Below, in pieces: positions 27,245-34,761 of a stretch of 64,000 nt of DNA. A model generated the notes under the pieces. That model had not been told where the DNA came from and did not search any database. It was given only the letters and a program-made list of their open reading frames with translations. The first letter of the stretch is position 1. The number at the start of each line of letters is the position of its first letter. Source of the DNA: Candidatus Bathyarchaeia archaeon (GTDB taxonomy: Archaea > Thermoproteota > Bathyarchaeia > Bathyarchaeales > Bathyarchaeaceae); assembly GCA_035283685.1 (NCBI GenBank), contig DATETJ010000009.1:62001-126000 (forward strand), read 5' to 3'. The translations under genes and the position numbers were made by a program.

Positions 27245-28000
27245 ATGATTCAGGTCTTTGGCATCAAAGGCTTGCCAATAATCAAAAAAGGAGACGACTT
27301 AGCTGGGCTCATCTGCAGGGGAGCTGAAAAACAGCGGGATTCAATAAAAGACAATGATGTGGTAGTTGTTACTCATGTTGTCGCTTCCAGAGCCGAAGGG
27401 AATGTCGTCAACCTTGACGAGGTTGTTCCTTCAGAGTTCGCAAAAACTGTTGCCAAACAGCTCGACAAAGACCCAGCGTTAGTAGAGGTTATCCTGCGCG
27501 AGTCAAAGAGCATTAGGCGCATGGGCGACGGACACCTAATAGTTGAAACCAAACGCGGATTTGTGTGCGCCAACGCCGGAGTCGACCAGTCCAACGTGCC
27601 AGAAGGCGAGAGAACAGTTGCGCCTTTGCCTAAGAACCCTGACCGTTCAGCACAACGCATACGACGTAGGATAAGGCAATTGACTGGAAAAGACGTGGCG
27701 GTCATAATCTCTGACACGCACGGTCGCCCGTTTCGGGAAGGAGAAATAAACGTAGCCGTAGGCGTTGCAGGCTTAATTCCGATACGAGACAGAAGAGGGG
27801 AAACCGACCTCTTCGGGTATGTTCTGAGAGTGAAACAAACAGCTATCGCTGACGAATTGGCATCAGCAGCCGAACTCGTCATAGGACAAGCAAAAGAGGG
27901 AATACCCGTGGCAATAATCAGAGGATACGCTTACCCCAAGTCTGAAAAAGCAAGCGCAAAAATGCTCGTCAGAAAACGAAGAAAAGACCTGTTTATTTAA
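27245..28000 (+). CDS. cofE: Coenzyme F420-0:L-glutamate ligase CofE
   Basis: CofE adds one or two gamma-linked glutamates to F420-0 with GTP. The protein has the whole family pattern: FGIKGLPIIKKGDDLAGLI at the N-terminus, VTHVVASRAEGNVVNL (about 40-55), SNVPEGERTVAPLPKNPD, IISDTHGRPFREGEINVAVG (about 157-176) and the C-terminal GIPVAIIRG. Length (251 aa) is typical of the archaeal single-domain form. The ATG at 27245 gives the usual N-terminus. The stop overlaps the end of fprA on the other strand by four bases. It shows that the organism makes F420. Confidence 0.95.
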   Translation: MIQVFGIKGLPIIKKGDDLAGLICRGAEKQRDSIKDNDVVVVTHVVASRAEGNVVNLDEVVPSEFAKTVAKQLDKDPALVEVILRESKSIRRMGDGHLIVETKRGFVCANAGVDQSNVPEGERTVAPLPKNPDRSAQRIRRRIRQLTGKDVAVIISDTHGRPFREGEINVAVGVAGLIPIRDRRGETDLFGYVLRVKQTAIADELASAAELVIGQAKEGIPVAIIRGYAYPKSEKASAKMLVRKRRKDLFI

Positions 28001-29214
28001 TGCTCAGATTCAGCTTGAATCTTAAGGCTCTCTTTAACCCTCATCGCTACATGCTTGCCCAAGGTCACTGCTTTTTCCAAGTCCTCCTTCTTTGGTGGTC
28101 CGCGCACTTCAAGAGTCTCTATGATTTCGAAGCCTGACTGCCCAAGACGTTCCGCAATAACTCGAGCTGATGCACGACCCCAACCGAAAGATCCAAAGAC
28201 AGCAACTATTTTCGCTCTGGGTCTTAAGGCTCGGATGAATTCGACTGCCATTATCGCCAATGGATGAGGCTGGTTAAGCACTGTTGGTGCGCCTATGACT
28301 ATAGCGCTGGCGTCAACCAAGTCTGAGATTACGTGAGAGATATCTGTTAGAAGCAGATTGTGAGGAACAACCTCGACTCCCTCCTCGGAAATAGCTTTCA
28401 CAACTGTTTGCTCCAATGTTTCGGTGCTGCCCCACATGCTGACATAGATAACAACAGCTTTTGGAAGCAGAGGTCCGCGAGCCCAGTTTTCGTATGCGTC
28501 CAATATTCGGTTCGGGTTTCGATAGATTGGACCGTGGCTCGGTCCTATCACCTTCACATCGAGGCTCTTCAGCTTATCCAATGCCCTATGAATAGCGACA
28601 GAAAAGGGCATCATTATCTCTGCATAATACCTTTTAGCTTCAGGCAACAACCCTTCTCCAAATTCGTCATCGTAGAGCCTGCTCTTTGCGAAGTGTGCCC
28701 CAAAAAAGTCACATGAAAAAAGGATTCTGTCCTCAACGCAGTACGTAAACATGGTTTCAGGCCAATGTAGCCATGGTGCTTCTATGAACCTCAGTGTTTT
28801 TCCGCCCAAGTCGATGGTGTCGCCATCCTTGACAACCATTATTCTTTCAGCCGGAGGCTCGTAGAAGACATTTGCCATGTCAACTCCAACCTTGGTGACA
28901 ACGAGTTTGGCGTTTTTGGCAACTGATAAGATCCTCGGAATAGAACTTCCATGGTCTGGTTCAGCGTGATTCATGACAAGATAGTCGATTTTCTCTGGGT
29001 TCACGATATTTCCGATATTCTCAAGAAGCTGGTCTGAAAACGTCTTGTGAACCGTATCAACCAGAGCAACTTTCTCTTTTCCGACCACCAAATAAGAGTT
29101 GAAAGATGTTCCGCGAGGCAAGGGTATCAATGAATCGAAATAGCGGCGAGCCCAGTCTTCAACACCGACCCAAAAAACACCAGACCCAATCTCGTTCGTG
29201 TGCTTGACGCTCAT
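27997..29214 (-). CDS. fprA: F420H2 oxidase / flavodiiron protein FprA
   Basis: A 405-residue A-type flavodiiron protein. The N-terminal lactamase-like domain has the diiron ligands in MNHAEPDHGSS (His, Glu, Asp, His near residues 82-88), HWPETMFTYC, SCDFFGAHF and GPSHGPIYR. The C-terminal flavodoxin domain starts at VVIYVSMWGSTE and has APTVLNQPHP. Archaeal FprA reduces O2 to water with F420H2, and some members reduce NO. It sits 3'-to-3' with cofE and 21 bases downstream of the hemerythrin gene on the same strand, so both are likely one oxygen-response operon. Confidence 0.95.
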   Translation of the reverse strand: MSVKHTNEIGSGVFWVGVEDWARRYFDSLIPLPRGTSFNSYLVVGKEKVALVDTVHKTFSDQLLENIGNIVNPEKIDYLVMNHAEPDHGSSIPRILSVAKNAKLVVTKVGVDMANVFYEPPAERIMVVKDGDTIDLGGKTLRFIEAPWLHWPETMFTYCVEDRILFSCDFFGAHFAKSRLYDDEFGEGLLPEAKRYYAEIMMPFSVAIHRALDKLKSLDVKVIGPSHGPIYRNPNRILDAYENWARGPLLPKAVVIYVSMWGSTETLEQTVVKAISEEGVEVVPHNLLLTDISHVISDLVDASAIVIGAPTVLNQPHPLAIMAVEFIRALRPRAKIVAVFGSFGWGRASARVIAERLGQSGFEIIETLEVRGPPKKEDLEKAVTLGKHVAMRVKESLKIQAESEH

Positions 29215-29235: not shown

Positions 29236-29823
29236 TCATTCTATGCCTAACGTTTTCTCCAAGTCATGAACAAGATGAATGTATTCGTGGTGCTTGCCCT
29301 CGCCAATTCTTTCCTTCTCGATCTCTTCGAACTTCTCCAGCAACTCTTTTTGTTCATCTGGTCCGCACATTTGGTCTGCCAGCGGGTACAAGATATCGTC
29401 TTCCTTTGGAATGTGTTGGGACAACAAATTGACGTAGCCACGGGCATTATCTATGATGGCTTGTTTTACAGCATTATCTCCTTTCGCATATCTCTCCGCT
29501 GCGTCAGCGAGACCTCGAACATAGGCTCTACCCTGATCGTGTTCCATACGCATTACGCCAGTCGGTCCCCCTTGCCTAGGAACGCGGAGCTCTATTCTGG
29601 GAAACAGAGTATCCTCTTCCTTTCCATGGTGGCAACGGTCAGCGAAATTCCTTATGAAATCAACAGCCTTCGTAAAGACTTCAGGAGAAACTTCCTCGCC
29701 CCGTTTCAATCTTTCCGTGGCAACATTGAGTATGTTAAGCATACGTTCAATGATCCTGTGGTCTTCTTTCAAGCTTTCCGTGGGAGAAGTCCCATGTGAA
29801 TGATTCAAAACTGTCCCCTTCAA
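29236..29823 (-). CDS. Hemerythrin HHE-domain protein
   Basis: The 195-residue four-helix protein has the non-heme diiron ligand set: an early EDHRIIERML (residues 21-30), CHHGKEEDTLFP (about 66-77), MEHDQGRAYV (about 91-100) and LSQHIPKEDDILYPL (about 136-150). Such proteins bind or sense O2 or NO and are often made with RIC/YtfE-type repair factors. The TTG start gives a short leader; a TATA-like ATTTATTAA on the minus strand near 29860 is the probable promoter. Upstream of fprA in the same direction. Confidence 0.9.
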   Translation of the reverse strand: MKGTVLNHSHGTSPTESLKEDHRIIERMLNILNVATERLKRGEEVSPEVFTKAVDFIRNFADRCHHGKEEDTLFPRIELRVPRQGGPTGVMRMEHDQGRAYVRGLADAAERYAKGDNAVKQAIIDNARGYVNLLSQHIPKEDDILYPLADQMCGPDEQKELLEKFEEIEKERIGEGKHHEYIHLVHDLEKTLGIE

Positions 29824-30143: not shown

Positions 30144-30467
30144 ATGGATGACTCTCATAAGGAGGCGAGAAACAGGTTGGAAGACGAAAAGGATCCTAGG
30201 TTAATGGAGAAACTCAAGAGCGTGATTGATCCTGAGCTAGGTGCAAGCGTTGTTGACATGGGTCTGATCAAAACTGCGAAGCTTGATCAAGATGGAAATG
30301 CTGTTGTGGAATTTGTTCCTTCAAGCCCTGTGTGCCCAATAGCCTTCTACTTGGCATCTGAGATAAAGAAGAAGACTTTGGAAGCTGAAGGTGTACATAA
30401 AGCCAAGGTTTACTGTCGTGAACACGCTATGGAAGAAGCGATCAACAAACAAGTCAATACAGAATAA
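30144..30467 (+). CDS. MIP18/DUF59-family Fe-S assembly protein
   Basis: A 107-residue protein of the MIP18 (DUF59) family: LMEKLKSVIDPELGASVVDMGLI (about 20-42) and SSPVCPIAFYLASEIKK with the conserved Cys (about residue 59). Family members help put iron-sulfur clusters into target proteins. It precedes the membrane protein at 30490 by 22 bases and is surely cotranscribed. DUF59, hemerythrin and DUF2249 proteins often travel together in bacterial NO and denitrification loci, which fits the context. Confidence 0.88.
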   Translation: MDDSHKEARNRLEDEKDPRLMEKLKSVIDPELGASVVDMGLIKTAKLDQDGNAVVEFVPSSPVCPIAFYLASEIKKKTLEAEGVHKAKVYCREHAMEEAINKQVNTE

Positions 30468-30489: not shown

Positions 30490-31902
30490 GTGCCCAAACT
30501 TGCCCTGCATTTCAGGTTCTTCAGAATATCCGTCATCTATTTCATAATTAGCGGTGTCATGGGCATTCTCTTCTCCATACCGCAGGTTGAACCGTTCACG
30601 CATAAGTCGGCAATTGCCGCTGGCCACATAATCTTTGTCTTCTTCGGATGGGTCACGATGACCATAATGGGCGTTATGAGCAAGATGGTGCCCACAATGC
30701 TGGGAAAGGACTTGCACAGCGAACAGTGGGGCGAAGTTACATTTTGGCTAATGAATATCGGGATACTTGGATACTCTATCCTCTTGATTCTTGAAGGGGT
30801 TGCTGAGCGAGTTTATCATCTAGTCCTCCCAGCGTTCACAACAAATCTTGAATTCCTTCTTGCTCTATTCATTGTTGCAGGCGGCTTCTCGTTTGCCTAC
30901 AACTTCTACAAGACCGTTGGGCTAAGAACCGCTAAGGTCGCAGAGCCAAGCATTGGATTATCCTTGAAGTTCTTTAGAATGTCAATTGCCTACTTCCTCG
31001 CCTCTATCGTCATCGCCGCTTTTTCCATTCTCGGTTACACTGACGCCGTTTTCTTTGGGCTTAGCTTTGCAAGAGTCCTGTGGGTCGCACCTTTTACGAC
31101 TCTAGGGTGGATGACCTTGACCATTATGGGCGCCATGTATCATCTCTTGCCAATGTTCACAATCTCTAGAGTTCCAAACTTTAAACTCGCTAACGCTCAG
31201 TTCTATGCATTGAATATTGGAACCGTGCTCACTGGAGTCGCGGGGCTTCTTGGAGCCAAACGGATTATTTTGGAAGGCGTTGAAGTCAACCTGCTCAGCG
31301 TGCTGCAAACTGTCGGTGTTGTGGCTGCGGGAATCGGTTCTGCACTGTTCGTGTACATAATGGCGTGGATTGTGCTATCGAGGAAGAGGAAGGAACTCAA
31401 TATCTCCGTGAAATTTTATCTGGTCGCGCTATTCTACTTCACCCTGACAGGTCTCTTCGGCGTCGTCCTGAAGACTCAGCAGGGTTACGATTTTTCCGAA
31501 GGCACGAAAATAATTCTGGGTCATGGGCTGCTGTCCGTGATCGGGTTCGTGTCGCTAACTATCATGGGTTCAATTTACTCCATCATACCAATGCTGGCAG
31601 TGGTGGACCTTCACGCACGAAAGAAAAAGGTTCCGAGCATCCTAACAGAGATGTACAACGAGAGGCTTTCTCGACTCAGTTTTTGGCTGTCGAGCGTTGG
31701 GGTCGGGGGATACATCACGGGCTTGGTTGGCGAAGGCTATGTGACGGCAACGCTTACACAGCAGGGCGCATCTTTGGCGCAGCTTGACGCGTCGACGTTT
31801 CCGTTTACTTTACTGTCAATCGCATTTGTCCTTGTTCTGGGAGCTGGCGTGCTTCTCTTTGCCTACAACGTGCAGAAAATGTATGGATGGCTGAAAGACT
31901 AG
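30490..31902 (+). CDS. Heme-copper-oxidase-subunit-I-like membrane protein with three internal repeats
   Basis: About twelve membrane helices in three repeats of one unit. Repeat 1 starts at residue 8 (FRFFRISVIYF) and has AAGHIIFVFFGWVTMTIMG; repeat 2 starts at 160 (KFFRMSIAYF) with TTLGWMTLTIMGAMYHLLP; repeat 3 starts at 309 (FYLVALFYF) with ILGHGLLSVIGFVSLTIMG. The unit resembles the four-helix units of CcoN/NorB-type subunits, for example FGWVTMTIMGxxxxxxP. Only three repeat His stand out (46, 218, 345), and the full CuB ligand set is not seen, so it may be a heme quinol or NO-binding protein rather than an oxidase. The GTG at 30490 is chosen because the longer frame runs into the DUF59 gene. 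Confidence 0.75.
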   Translation: MPKLALHFRFFRISVIYFIISGVMGILFSIPQVEPFTHKSAIAAGHIIFVFFGWVTMTIMGVMSKMVPTMLGKDLHSEQWGEVTFWLMNIGILGYSILLILEGVAERVYHLVLPAFTTNLEFLLALFIVAGGFSFAYNFYKTVGLRTAKVAEPSIGLSLKFFRMSIAYFLASIVIAAFSILGYTDAVFFGLSFARVLWVAPFTTLGWMTLTIMGAMYHLLPMFTISRVPNFKLANAQFYALNIGTVLTGVAGLLGAKRIILEGVEVNLLSVLQTVGVVAAGIGSALFVYIMAWIVLSRKRKELNISVKFYLVALFYFTLTGLFGVVLKTQQGYDFSEGTKIILGHGLLSVIGFVSLTIMGSIYSIIPMLAVVDLHARKKKVPSILTEMYNERLSRLSFWLSSVGVGGYITGLVGEGYVTATLTQQGASLAQLDASTFPFTLLSIAFVLVLGAGVLLFAYNVQKMYGWLKD

Positions 31903-31911
31903 ATCAATTGG

Positions 31912-32043
31912 CTACTTCTTGTACATTTCGATGTAGCCGCATCCCTTACAGATGTATGATTTGACCATTTCTTCTATAGGGAAGCCTGCGAATGGATGTC
32001 CTTCAGCCATTTCGCCTGCACACTTCGGACACTTCTTTTCTAT
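31912..32043 (-). CDS. 43-aa zinc-ribbon protein with probable ATA start
   Basis: The minus strand encodes EKKCPKCAGEMAEGHPF, then ..SYICKGCGYIEMYKK: two CxxC pairs (residues 5-8 and 32-35) spaced as in a zinc ribbon, with a clean stop. An in-frame TGA lies just upstream and no ATG, GTG or TTG exists between it and the first Cys. The motif GGAGGG at 32051-32056 sits seven bases before an ATA codon, which is therefore the best start. It lies between the HCO-like gene and the ArsR operon and may be a small metal-binding accessory protein. Confidence 0.65.
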   Translation of the reverse strand: MEKKCPKCAGEMAEGHPFAGFPIEEMVKSYICKGCGYIEMYKK

Positions 32044-32142
32044 ATGTGAGCCCTCCTTTGAAATTCACTCTCGGAATAGAATCCGCGTTATTAGTAAATA
32101 AATCTTGTACGCCGAAGCACCGCAAGGCTTATCTGCCTGTTA

Positions 32143-32185: not shown

Positions 32186-32515
32186 ATGAAGCGAGGCTTA
32201 AGCGAGACGTGTCACCAGTTCTTTTCAACGCTTGCGAATCCAACACGATTAGCCATTTTGGAAATCCTCAGAAATGGATCTATGAATGTTAGTGAGATAG
32301 CCGATGTTCTCAAGCAAGAACAGAGCATGATTTCCCACAATCTGAAGCCTTTGATAAGATGCGGTTTTGTCCTCGTGGAAAGACAATGGAAGGAACGCAT
32401 ATACACTCTCAACGAGAAAATTATGAAACCCGTGTTTCAACTCATCGACCAACACACAGGCACATACTGCCCCGGAATGAAGTGCCCGAAAAACGAAATT
32501 TGTGAGGGAGACTAA
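32186..32515 (+). CDS. ArsR-family winged-helix regulator
   Basis: The 109-residue protein has the ArsR fold: FFSTLANPTRLAILEILRNG, the recognition helix region VLKQEQSMISHNLKPLIRCGFV and the wing RQWKERIYTLNE. The C-terminus has a Cys cluster (YCPGMKCPKNEIC, about 92-104) that could bind metal, heme or an Fe-S cluster and so sense redox, O2 or NO. It starts an operon of three overlapping genes, behind a palindrome. It is the natural candidate to control the HCO-like/hemerythrin locus. Confidence 0.88.
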   Translation: MKRGLSETCHQFFSTLANPTRLAILEILRNGSMNVSEIADVLKQEQSMISHNLKPLIRCGFVLVERQWKERIYTLNEKIMKPVFQLIDQHTGTYCPGMKCPKNEICEGD

Positions 32516-32822
32516 GCAATTGCCTTCTTTTACTGAACACGTTAGACGAAGCGTGGAGCGAACTGGCGACGAATACATCGAACTAAACAGATGGCTAGAT
32601 GGAGATCAAGTATCACTTTCCCAGCGGCTTCCAAGGCACTTTCGACTCAGGAAATACTCAAAATACGTTCAAAACAATTGGGGCGAAAACGGCTTGACCG
32701 AATACAGAAGACACATTAAGGACGATTTCAAACTGCCCTTCATCACCGTCTTGTCTATTATCCGAAGAAAACTGTCACTCCTAACAACTCGAACCGTTGA
32801 GGGAGGTGAAGGAAAGAAATGA
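32502..32822 (+). CDS. Hypothetical basic protein, 106 aa
   Basis: No family recognised. It begins with GTG inside the 3' end of arsR (14-base overlap) and ends in an ATGA overlap with the next gene, so it is translated as part of the operon. It is rich in Arg/Lys (SLSQRLPRHFRLRKYSKYVQ) with Trp and Tyr but no Cys pairs or membrane segment, so binding of nucleic acid or a protein partner is possible. A short hydrophobic run lies near residues 78-88. Confidence 0.6.
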   Translation: MRETKQLPSFTEHVRRSVERTGDEYIELNRWLDGDQVSLSQRLPRHFRLRKYSKYVQNNWGENGLTEYRRHIKDDFKLPFITVLSIIRRKLSLLTTRTVEGGEGKK

Positions 32823-33064
32823 GCGGCAAGAGCCCCGACACATGCCCTGGCATATCGAAATTCATCCGACCCGTTCCAGAATTTTTCCCATGCCCATTCT
32901 GCGGTGGAAAAGTAGAAATCTGGAGCGACGAAGACATGGGAATCTGCACCAACTGCGAAAAAGAGTCACCGAGACCAGTTAAGGAAAAATCATGTTTAGA
33001 CTGGTGCGAATTCTCTGACAAATGCAAAGGCATAATTGACAGCAAAAAAAGCGCACTCGGTTAA
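32819..33064 (+). CDS. Small double-cluster Cys-rich protein
   Basis: The 81-residue protein has a zinc-ribbon pair (CPFCGGKVEIW ... CTNCEKES, about 25-47) and then a second Cys set CLDWCEFSDKC (about 58-68), similar to the Cys tail of the ArsR protein two genes upstream. It may bind zinc or an Fe-S cluster. ATG overlaps the preceding stop (ATGA). Third gene of the arsR operon. No name can be given. Confidence 0.7.
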   Translation: MSGKSPDTCPGISKFIRPVPEFFPCPFCGGKVEIWSDEDMGICTNCEKESPRPVKEKSCLDWCEFSDKCKGIIDSKKSALG

Positions 33065-33121
33065 CTTCACGGTGATATTAGCCTTGACAACTATAAAGAA
33101 AAGGGAATAGGAGGGATGCAA

Positions 33122-33340
33122 ATGACTGAACCGGTCGACTTGAGAACAGTGAGTATTTTTGAGCGACACAACGTGCTCTTTGCCAAATTAATGAAGCTGA
33201 ACACGGGAGAAAGCTTCACGTTCATAAATGACCATGAGCCTCGCCCATTGTACCCCGAGCTAGCAAAAAGAGGGTTCCAGTACCAGGTCAAGAAAGAAGC
33301 CGAAGACAAGTGGGTAGTAACCGTGAAGAAAGGAGAATAG
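33122..33340 (+). CDS. DUF2249-domain protein
   Basis: A TusA-like two-layer fold of 72 residues: PVDLRTVSIFERHNVLFAKL, GESFTFINDHEPRPLYPELA and a last strand DKWVVTVKK, all in the DUF2249 pattern. Family members sit in NO and denitrification loci, often fused to hemerythrin domains, with unknown chemistry. GGAGGG directly abuts a first ATG at 33116, so the ATG at 33122, six bases behind the site, is the better start. It closes the presumed O2/NO locus. Confidence 0.85.
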   Translation: MTEPVDLRTVSIFERHNVLFAKLMKLNTGESFTFINDHEPRPLYPELAKRGFQYQVKKEAEDKWVVTVKKGE

Positions 33341-33477: not shown

Positions 33478-34761
33478 TCATCTGAAGTTGAAGTTTTCTG
33501 TTTCTGACAATAGTTTTTCAATATCAGCCTTCGTATGCGCCGTGCTTAATGCGCCGCCTTTTCCTGGGAACATGAAGACTCCGCTTTCGAGCAGATGCAT
33601 ATGATATCTTCGCAGCTTTTCTTTGTCCGCTTTTGCCGCGTCATTTGCATCAGTGATCTTTTCCTTCGTGAAATGCGTGTGCCATAGAGAGCTTAAGCCA
33701 GTCACCTGAGCCTCTAGACCCTTTTTCTCAAGGATCCCTCGAAGTTGTCGCCGCAGATAATCGCCTTGCTTGTTCAGCTTGTTGATCAGCTGTCCGTTCT
33801 CGAGTTTTCTCACGGTTGCCAAGCCCGCGGTCATTGCTATTGGATTAGCGGTGAAAGTCCCGCCGTGAAAGGCATACTTAGGTCGTTCGTACACTAATGG
33901 GTTCATGTGTTCCATGATTTCGCGTGAGCCTGCAATAGCCCCAATCGGGAAACCTCCCCCGAGAATCTTTCCAAAGAGGGTGATATCAGGTTTTATCCCG
34001 AAGAGCTGTTGCGCTCCCCCAGGAGCCAATCTGAAGCCAGTTATTATCTCGTCATAAACCAGTAGTGTGCCGTTCTGAGTGCAAAGCTCTCTGAGTTCCC
34101 TCATAAAGTCTAACTCTGCTGGAATGCATCCTCCGGATACCATTATTGGCTCGATGAATACAGCTGCAATGCTCCCGGTTTTGAGTATCTTTCTCAGTGG
34201 TTCAATCTTGTTATAGGGCAGTACAACTGTATCCTGCAATGCACCTTCAGTCAAGCCGCTGGATTCTCGAAGATCAAAGGGTTGCTTCACTGCAACATGA
34301 AGGGGGTCATACCCACCATGCCATCCGCCTTCAAACTTGCCGATTTTATCTTGTTCAGTGACGGCTCTTGCCAATCGAGTGGCATACATGGCAGCCTCTG
34401 TTCCTGAGTTTGAGAAACGAATCATCTGGGCGCATGGAACCACCTTAGCAACCTGCTCAGCTAGGGCAATTTCCAACTCATGGGCTGTGCCAAAGTGTGT
34501 ACCTTTATCAATTTGCCGTTTGACTTCGCGCATGACTTGGGGCTGACTGTGCCCTAGAATAAGTGCGTAATGTCCAAGCCAGAAATCTATGTATTCGTTT
34601 CCATCAACATCGAAAAGTCTGCTTCCTCTCGCTCGGGCAGTGTAGAAAGGGTAGGGTTCAATGTAGCGCAGAAAGTAGGAAACACCTGCAGGGAGAACCC
34701 GTCTGGCTTGTTGGTATAATCTTCGCGACTTCCGCGTTCTTGATAGATAGCGGCGAGACAA
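33478..34761 (-). CDS. Class III aminotransferase, glutamate-1-semialdehyde aminomutase-like
   Basis: A 427-residue PLP enzyme close to HemL: NEYIDFWLGHYALILGHSQP, FSNSGTEAAMYATRLAR, FEGGWHGGYDPLHVA, VYDEIITGFRL and the PLP-lysine segment LFGKILGGGFPIGAIAGS (Lys near residue 266). HemL makes 5-aminolevulinate from glutamate semialdehyde, but no other heme genes are near. It could instead be a related mutase or aminotransferase, so hemL is not assigned. TTG start. Confidence 0.82.
   Translation of the reverse strand: MSRRYLSRTRKSRRLYQQARRVLPAGVSYFLRYIEPYPFYTARARGSRLFDVDGNEYIDFWLGHYALILGHSQPQVMREVKRQIDKGTHFGTAHELEIALAEQVAKVVPCAQMIRFSNSGTEAAMYATRLARAVTEQDKIGKFEGGWHGGYDPLHVAVKQPFDLRESSGLTEGALQDTVVLPYNKIEPLRKILKTGSIAAVFIEPIMVSGGCIPAELDFMRELRELCTQNGTLLVYDEIITGFRLAPGGAQQLFGIKPDITLFGKILGGGFPIGAIAGSREIMEHMNPLVYERPKYAFHGGTFTANPIAMTAGLATVRKLENGQLINKLNKQGDYLRRQLRGILEKKGLEAQVTGLSSLWHTHFTKEKITDANDAAKADKEKLRRYHMHLLESGVFMFPGKGGALSTAHTKADIEKLLSETENFNFR

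Follow-up and report, generated by a model that had tools for sequence, protein, structure and literature searches.

Aerobic respiration and denitrification both depend centrally on the catalytic subunit I of the heme–copper oxidases (HCO). Because this subunit has an internal threefold symmetry, triplication of a smaller unit has been suggested as its origin. In 2014, Pei, Li, Kinch and Grishin reportedly described HCO-homology (HCOH) proteins with either one or three four-helix units. Most of the three-unit forms are said to keep two His able to hold one heme, and many HCO-homology proteins are said to be tied to denitrification and NO detoxification. NnrS is a further membrane protein of the HCO superfamily that is linked to NO. 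Here we describe a gene of this kind in a stretch of 64,000 nucleotides from a Candidatus Bathyarchaeia archaeon, which we call the window.

Family, fold and repeat architecture

The frame at 30490-31902 on the + strand is open throughout, starts with GTG and encodes 470 residues. In the list below, p1 and p2 denote the first and second His of a unit's H-x-H.

30490..31902, + strand: three-unit, 12-helix HCO-homology (HCOH-type) membrane protein, 470 aa (COX1, AlphaFold, Foldseek)
30490..30945, + strand: unit 1, helices 1-4, residues 1-152; H46 at p1, I48 instead of the p2 His
30625-30627, + strand: H46, unit-1 p1, first His of the helix-X HxH position
30946..31395, + strand: unit 2, helices 5-8, residues 153-302; V199 and P201 instead of the p1 and p2 His
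31396..31899, + strand: unit 3, helices 9-12, residues 303-470; H345 at p1, L347 instead of the p2 His
31522-31524, + strand: H345, unit-3 p1, first His of the helix-X HxH position

Each unit of about 150 residues has four helices. The units are 26-31% identical to one another, with an invariant TIMG core and, in all three, a Pro a few residues past it. Aligned locally in pairs with BLOSUM62, they score 113, 163, and 92, while 500 hydropathy-preserving local shuffles gave means of 37-39 and a maximum of 64-77. Unit 3 contains an insertion (K..VP.I.E.Y.ERL) that is common to the archaeal relatives. A circular permutation of the units was considered, because a YH motif typical of unit 3 is found here in unit 2, and was rejected, since the position of the insertion shows that the unit order is unchanged.

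The Pfam family COX1 matches the protein with E = 1.9e-32, passing the curated cut-off, in three stretches, the best of which aligns with the closing portion of that profile. No other Pfam family, the NnrS profile included, was reported for it at E ≤ 10. In a phmmer search of the PDB, the best match was a cbb3 catalytic subunit (E = 2.2e-6), and the closest PDB sequences are these CcoN subunits, matched over their last third. An AlphaFold2 model, built from a shallow alignment of seven natural sequences, has 12 long helices, with a pLDDT of 75.7 and a pTM of 0.77. When it was compared with the PDB by Foldseek, every one of the 50 matches listed was either an NO reductase or a subunit I of HCO, with alignments that spanned the protein from end to end and TM-scores of 0.66 for CcoN (8smr) and 0.68 for the Pseudomonas cNOR. 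The model of a relative from another archaeon (P0002; pLDDT 83, pTM 0.84) reaches a TM-score of 0.80-0.81 to CcoN. These fold matches put the three units in the HCO order, with helices I-IV, V-VIII, and IX-XII.

Three features of HCOH proteins are found in this protein: significant similarity to an HCO/NOR catalytic subunit, three homologous four-helix units giving 12 helices, and a reduced ligand set without all six canonical HCO His. It almost certainly belongs to the HCO-homology group. Hydrophobic repeats can in general give spurious matches, and the protein could on that ground be taken for a 12-helix transporter with no relation to HCO, its COX1 match being an artefact of composition. 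However, this reading is already contradicted, and we regard it as scarcely credible, given the strength of the COX1 match with no second Pfam family, the confinement of the listed PDB fold matches to the HCO superfamily, and the HxH ligand motif of the relatives, which is in register with CcoN.

The first-pass annotation of this DNA had described three tandem repeats and a protein resembling HCO subunit I rather than a plain transporter, and had proposed a structure prediction as a check. The unit scores, the COX1 matches in all three units and the predicted 12-helix fold of HCO subunit I agree with that description. It had also treated the three repeated units as peculiar, which they are not, because HCO subunit I has the same construction and HCO-homology proteins with 12 helices had been reported by 2014.

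Relatives and the heme ligand positions

Single-sequence scans of genome and viral collections gave no relatives, but an alignment of the repeat units, used as the query, recovered them. Full-length relatives were found in a Euryarchaeota groundwater MAG (L017/P0002, 33% identity), in Archaeoglobi JdFR-42 (L018/P0003, 29% identity), and in several bacteria. A three-sequence profile matched 18 of the 23 genomes of the small archaeal phylum of L017 and 58/345 genomes of the phylum of L018, the latter including a few long canonical oxidases or single-unit forms. Relatives in the L018 phylum are called Archaeoglobi-like or haloarchaeal here from protein length and from long-form plasmid matches, all of which are haloarchaeal.

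Half of the aligned sequences (33 of 66) have an H-x-H in every unit, at the position of the oxidase helix-X HxH, as do most of the non-haloarchaeal archaeal relatives. The triple-HxH archaeal proteins are L017, L018, L041-L049, L070-L083, and L087-L094. At the same positions, CcoN reads H- in unit 1, -H in unit 2, and HH in unit 3. In established HCO structures, the unit-1 His is the low-spin heme ligand of helix II, the unit-2 His binds CuB from helix VI, and the two unit-3 His are the high-spin and low-spin heme ligands of helix X. The CcoN pattern predicts three sites, each shared by two units. Site A (unit-1 p1 with unit-3 p2) would be that of the low-spin heme, site B (unit-3 p1 with unit-2 p2) that of the high-spin heme and the CuB side, and site C (unit-2 p1 with unit-1 p2) would be empty in HCO.

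His are lost in pairs that fit this geometry. Among 65 sequences, with the window protein left out, the HCO-geometry pairing gives 10 mismatches in 195, the lowest of the six pairings (the others give 30, 40, 58, 66, and 68), in counts that ignore kinship in the tree. After thinning to <50% identity, it gives 4/63 mismatches, compared with 8 to 20 for the others. Both site-B His are gone in L050/L051 and L084; sites A and B are gone and C is kept in L036 and the Thermus relatives; and site C alone is lost in CcoN and L096. In the family, conservation of the site-C His stands at 98%, and the window protein is the one case where they are missing. The paired loss suggests up to three heme sites in the relatives, of which, judging from the alignment, the only putative site that is nearly universal is site C, the one that is empty in oxidases. 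The HxH in each unit and the paired loss may be new here, relative to the HCOH proteins that Pei et al. (2014) reportedly described.

Single-unit, four-helix HxH proteins of about 135-185 aa (L122-L128) are also present in the phylum of the Archaeoglobi locus L018, and are candidates for homotrimers; one of them, L126, lies directly after a Cys-rich/DUF2249-like gene. Elsewhere in the window genome, a 167-aa membrane protein (P0007; G000:C8:45845-46042, L004:1336-1839) beside a prenyl diphosphate synthase-like gene was considered as a single-unit relative. It was left out of the argument because it has no HxH and its COX1 match is below the cut-off.

The His of the window protein are at residues 7, 38, 46, 76, 110, 218, 345, and 375. 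The first-pass annotation had singled out H46, H218, and H345 in the repeats. H46 and H345 do occupy the same repeat position, but H218 is at the opposite end of the helix that contains V199, the true unit-2 equivalent. The ligand positions of units 1-3 read H I / V P / H L. Both site-C His are missing, with I48 and V199 in their place, and the protein is the sole site-C exception among 61 family rows. Sites A and B are left with one His each, H46 and H345, so that, of the six p1/p2 His seen in the HxH relatives, four are gone. Other conserved residues are lost as well, the His of the unit-3 YH (S364) and a Gln of unit 1 (K65). On this alignment, what really sets the protein apart is that it lacks two paired His conserved in 98% of its relatives.

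In terms of oxidase chemistry, the bis-His pair of the low-spin heme is incomplete, since H46 is kept but L347 is at the position of the second helix X His. The helix VI His position (CuB/FeB) is P201, and there is no His between residues 218 and 345, hence no helix VII His. With no His at the helix VI/VII positions, the CuB/FeB site is absent. The ligand position of the high-spin heme, the first helix X His, is filled by H345. By HCO geometry, H46 and H345 are at different heme sites, and therefore they would not form a bis-His heme together.

The gene cassette, its origin and heme supply

The neighbors of the gene in the window are as follows.

27997..29214, - strand: flavodiiron protein (FprA/NorV family; ODP, E = 6.6e-31)
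29236..29823, - strand: hemerythrin (HHE) domain protein, weakly RIC/YtfE-like (Pfam, NCBIfam)
30144..30467, + strand: DUF59 / FeS_assembly_P (MIP18/PaaD-like; Pfam, E = 1e-9)
32186..32515, + strand: ArsR-family regulator (NCBIfam NF033788, over cut-off)
32819..33064, + strand: small Cys-rich protein (CPG...CPxCG...C..C...SCxxWCxxxxxC; cassette alignment)
33116..33340, + strand: DUF2249 (TusA-like; Pfam, E = 1.6e-19)

The DUF59 gene is 22 bp upstream of the 470-aa gene on the same strand, and its product aligns with the DUF59 proteins of the relatives' cassettes (DMGL and PSSP.CP motifs). The ArsR gene lies between the 470-aa gene and the Cys-rich and DUF2249 genes. The Cys-rich protein matches no Pfam or NCBIfam model at threshold, and it aligns with those of the relatives through CPG, CPxCG, C..C, and C..WC....C; homologs occur at L017, L018, L103, L104, L106, L113, L118, and L126, sometimes as DUF2249 fusions. 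The cassette copy of DUF2249 is the one DUF2249 gene detected in the genome. The hemerythrin gene, on the opposite strand, and the flavodiiron gene, whose NorV-type NCBIfam matches are under the cut-off, may be linked to the cassette. Just past the 470-aa gene, a possible small zinc-ribbon ORF (CPKC...CKGC) is seen on the minus strand at 31912-32055, with no start codon identified. Sigma-70-like and terminator-like signals were not above chance.

The cassette, whole or partial, is found in Archaeoglobi, the small archaeal phylum, haloarchaea, Thermus, and Ensifer. DUF59 adjoins the HCOH gene in 14 of the loci compared, most of them with DUF2249 and/or the Cys-rich protein between, and Archaeoglobi and the small archaeal phylum have one DUF59-DUF2249/Cys-rich-HCOH operon. 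In Thermus brockianus, the order is DUF2249, DUF1858-DUF2249, a small gene, a protoglobin-like gene, HCOH, and DUF59; in Natronococcus, three DUF2249 genes surround the HCOH gene. Ensifer canadensis (pT173d) has norECBQD, hemN, DUF2249, HCOH, DUF2249, DUF59, NnrS, and nirK. Beyond this core, no other strongly recurring neighbor family was seen among the loci. The second-largest neighbor cluster was discounted, because its members are ORFs that overlie those genes in the opposite frame.

The DUF59 and DUF2249 genes of the window, together with the cassettes of the relatives, supply the DUF2249/DUF59 and NO/denitrification neighborhood of HCOH proteins. DUF2249 genes of Haloferax mediterranei are up under denitrification, according to a paper that credits Pei et al. 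(2014) with associating them with the HCO superfamily (PMC11218638). The DUF2249 protein DrpA of Thermus participates in nitrate-dependent regulation (PMC6282519). From the gene neighborhood in other organisms, we consider it fairly likely that the function of the cassette is linked to NO or O2.

One could suppose that the protein is a working but highly divergent subunit of an NO reductase or oxidase with unusual ligands. The predicted HCO fold, the FprA, hemerythrin, and DUF2249 neighbors, and the place of the Ensifer cassette among nor and nir genes are in keeping with this. However, the helix VI/VII His needed for a CuB/FeB site and the partner His of the low-spin heme are missing, and NorC, CoxB, CcoO, and cytochrome c had no match among the neighboring genes tested. 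This makes the proposal very improbable, and the protein is neither an oxidase nor an NO reductase.

Much of the first-pass interpretation stands: the HCO relation, the shortage of His for an oxidase or NO reductase (those of CuB/FeB and the low-spin partner), and a gene setting for O2, NO, and Fe–S chemistry (DUF59, DUF2249, flavodiiron protein, hemerythrin). Its proposed comparison of neighbors in other archaea showed the DUF59/DUF2249/Cys-rich cassette recurring with the HCOH gene. The peculiarity of the repeats and the equivalence of H218 fall away.

Within the order of the window genome, the gene is present in 1/163 genomes, the window genome alone. The remaining matches in a sample of 398 genomes of the phylum are oxidases of canonical length, aligned over one unit. 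In the tree, the window protein is on a long branch (2.04) with weak placement (80/66). Lateral acquisition is the simplest reading of this distribution and tree, and this cassette member was probably acquired horizontally and has diverged strongly.

The window genome is 98% complete, and it contains no AhbC/AhbD-like heme synthase at E ≤ 1e-30 and no ferrochelatase that we could find, so heme is perhaps unavailable. However, the haloarchaeal genome G702 and the control Sulfolobus also fail the AhbD threshold, which makes this test weak. Absent heme synthesis was examined as the cause of the ligand loss and was not decisive. A HemL-like glutamate-1-semialdehyde aminomutase gene lies beside the cassette (33478-34761, minus strand).

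These data bear on a serious rival to a heme protein, namely that a heme-less archaeon acquired the gene and its ligands decayed, leaving a degenerate, heme-free protein that serves the DUF59/DUF2249 proteins as a structural partner or as a channel for small molecules. The loss of four of six p1/p2 His together with the unit-1 Gln and the unit-3 His, the undetected AhbC/D-like and ferrochelatase genes, and the long branch fit such decay. Yet the reading frame is intact, the Gly/Pro residues that determine the fold and the TIMG core are retained, as are the cassette partners, and it would have to be coincidental that the two surviving His are exactly those at p1 in unit 1 and unit 3. We regard the heme-free state as less likely than the reading given below, while taking it seriously.

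Proposed function and comparison with known systems

Our best reading, to which we give about an even chance, is that the window protein is an HCOH member of a DUF59/Cys-rich/DUF2249 cassette that was probably acquired, has diverged, is linked to NO/O2 stress, and has no more than two heme sites, each with a single His. In the relatives, the cassette would hold a membrane heme between the second helices of neighboring units, and would handle NO or other reactive gases and protect Fe–S proteins rather than conserve energy by respiration. The window copy, after lateral transfer and strong divergence, would have lost site C wholly and one His from each of sites A and B. At most, two five-coordinate hemes would then be present, one with H46 and the other with H345 as its only proximal ligand. 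Their open gas-binding face, with no second metal, would make the protein a gas binder, sensor, or sink, not a reductase. That the window protein itself binds heme or gas seems to us somewhat less likely than not. No experiments on any member of exactly this family were found in the literature.

A bolder proposal would make the triple-HxH proteins of archaea cytochromes of pseudo-C3 symmetry, with three equivalent bis-His heme sites, near the state ancestral to HCO, in which one site was emptied and another opened. The window protein would be a derivative in which two of these sites have become open hemes that bind gas, each held by a single His and coupled to Fe–S repair by DUF59/DUF2249. We offer this as a long shot. 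The triple-HxH and single-unit HxH archaeal proteins are concrete objects on which the triplication idea can be tested. The relatives point to a conserved archaeal DUF59/DUF2249/Cys-rich/HCO-like cassette, and the window protein is a natural variant showing which ligands the cassette can dispense with.

Compared with CcoN and HCO subunit I, the window protein is alike in its predicted fold (TM 0.66), with H46 aligned to the helix II ligand and H345 to the first helix X ligand. CcoN, however, has the helix VI/VII CuB His, the second helix X His, and partner genes, none of which was found for the window protein. It differs from NnrS in matching COX1 and not the NnrS profile (Pfam, E ≤ 10), and in the Ensifer cluster NnrS is a gene separate from HCOH. 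With the archaeal triple-HxH relatives (L017/P0002, L018/P0003, and the Archaeoglobi loci), it has in common the unit-3 insertion and the DUF59 and Cys-rich partners, but they have six ligand-type His and it has two. In kind, it resembles the three-unit HCOH proteins reportedly described by Pei et al. (2014), in the 12 helices and three units, the reduced His, and the DUF2249/denitrification neighborhood. In the relatives gathered here, the usual pair of such proteins is unit-1 p2 with unit-2 p1, a pair that is typical and not strictly defining. Neither His of this pair is present in the window protein, whose two remaining His are at other positions and are not paired. It is of the HCOH type by fold, units, and neighborhood, and departs from that type in its ligand pair.
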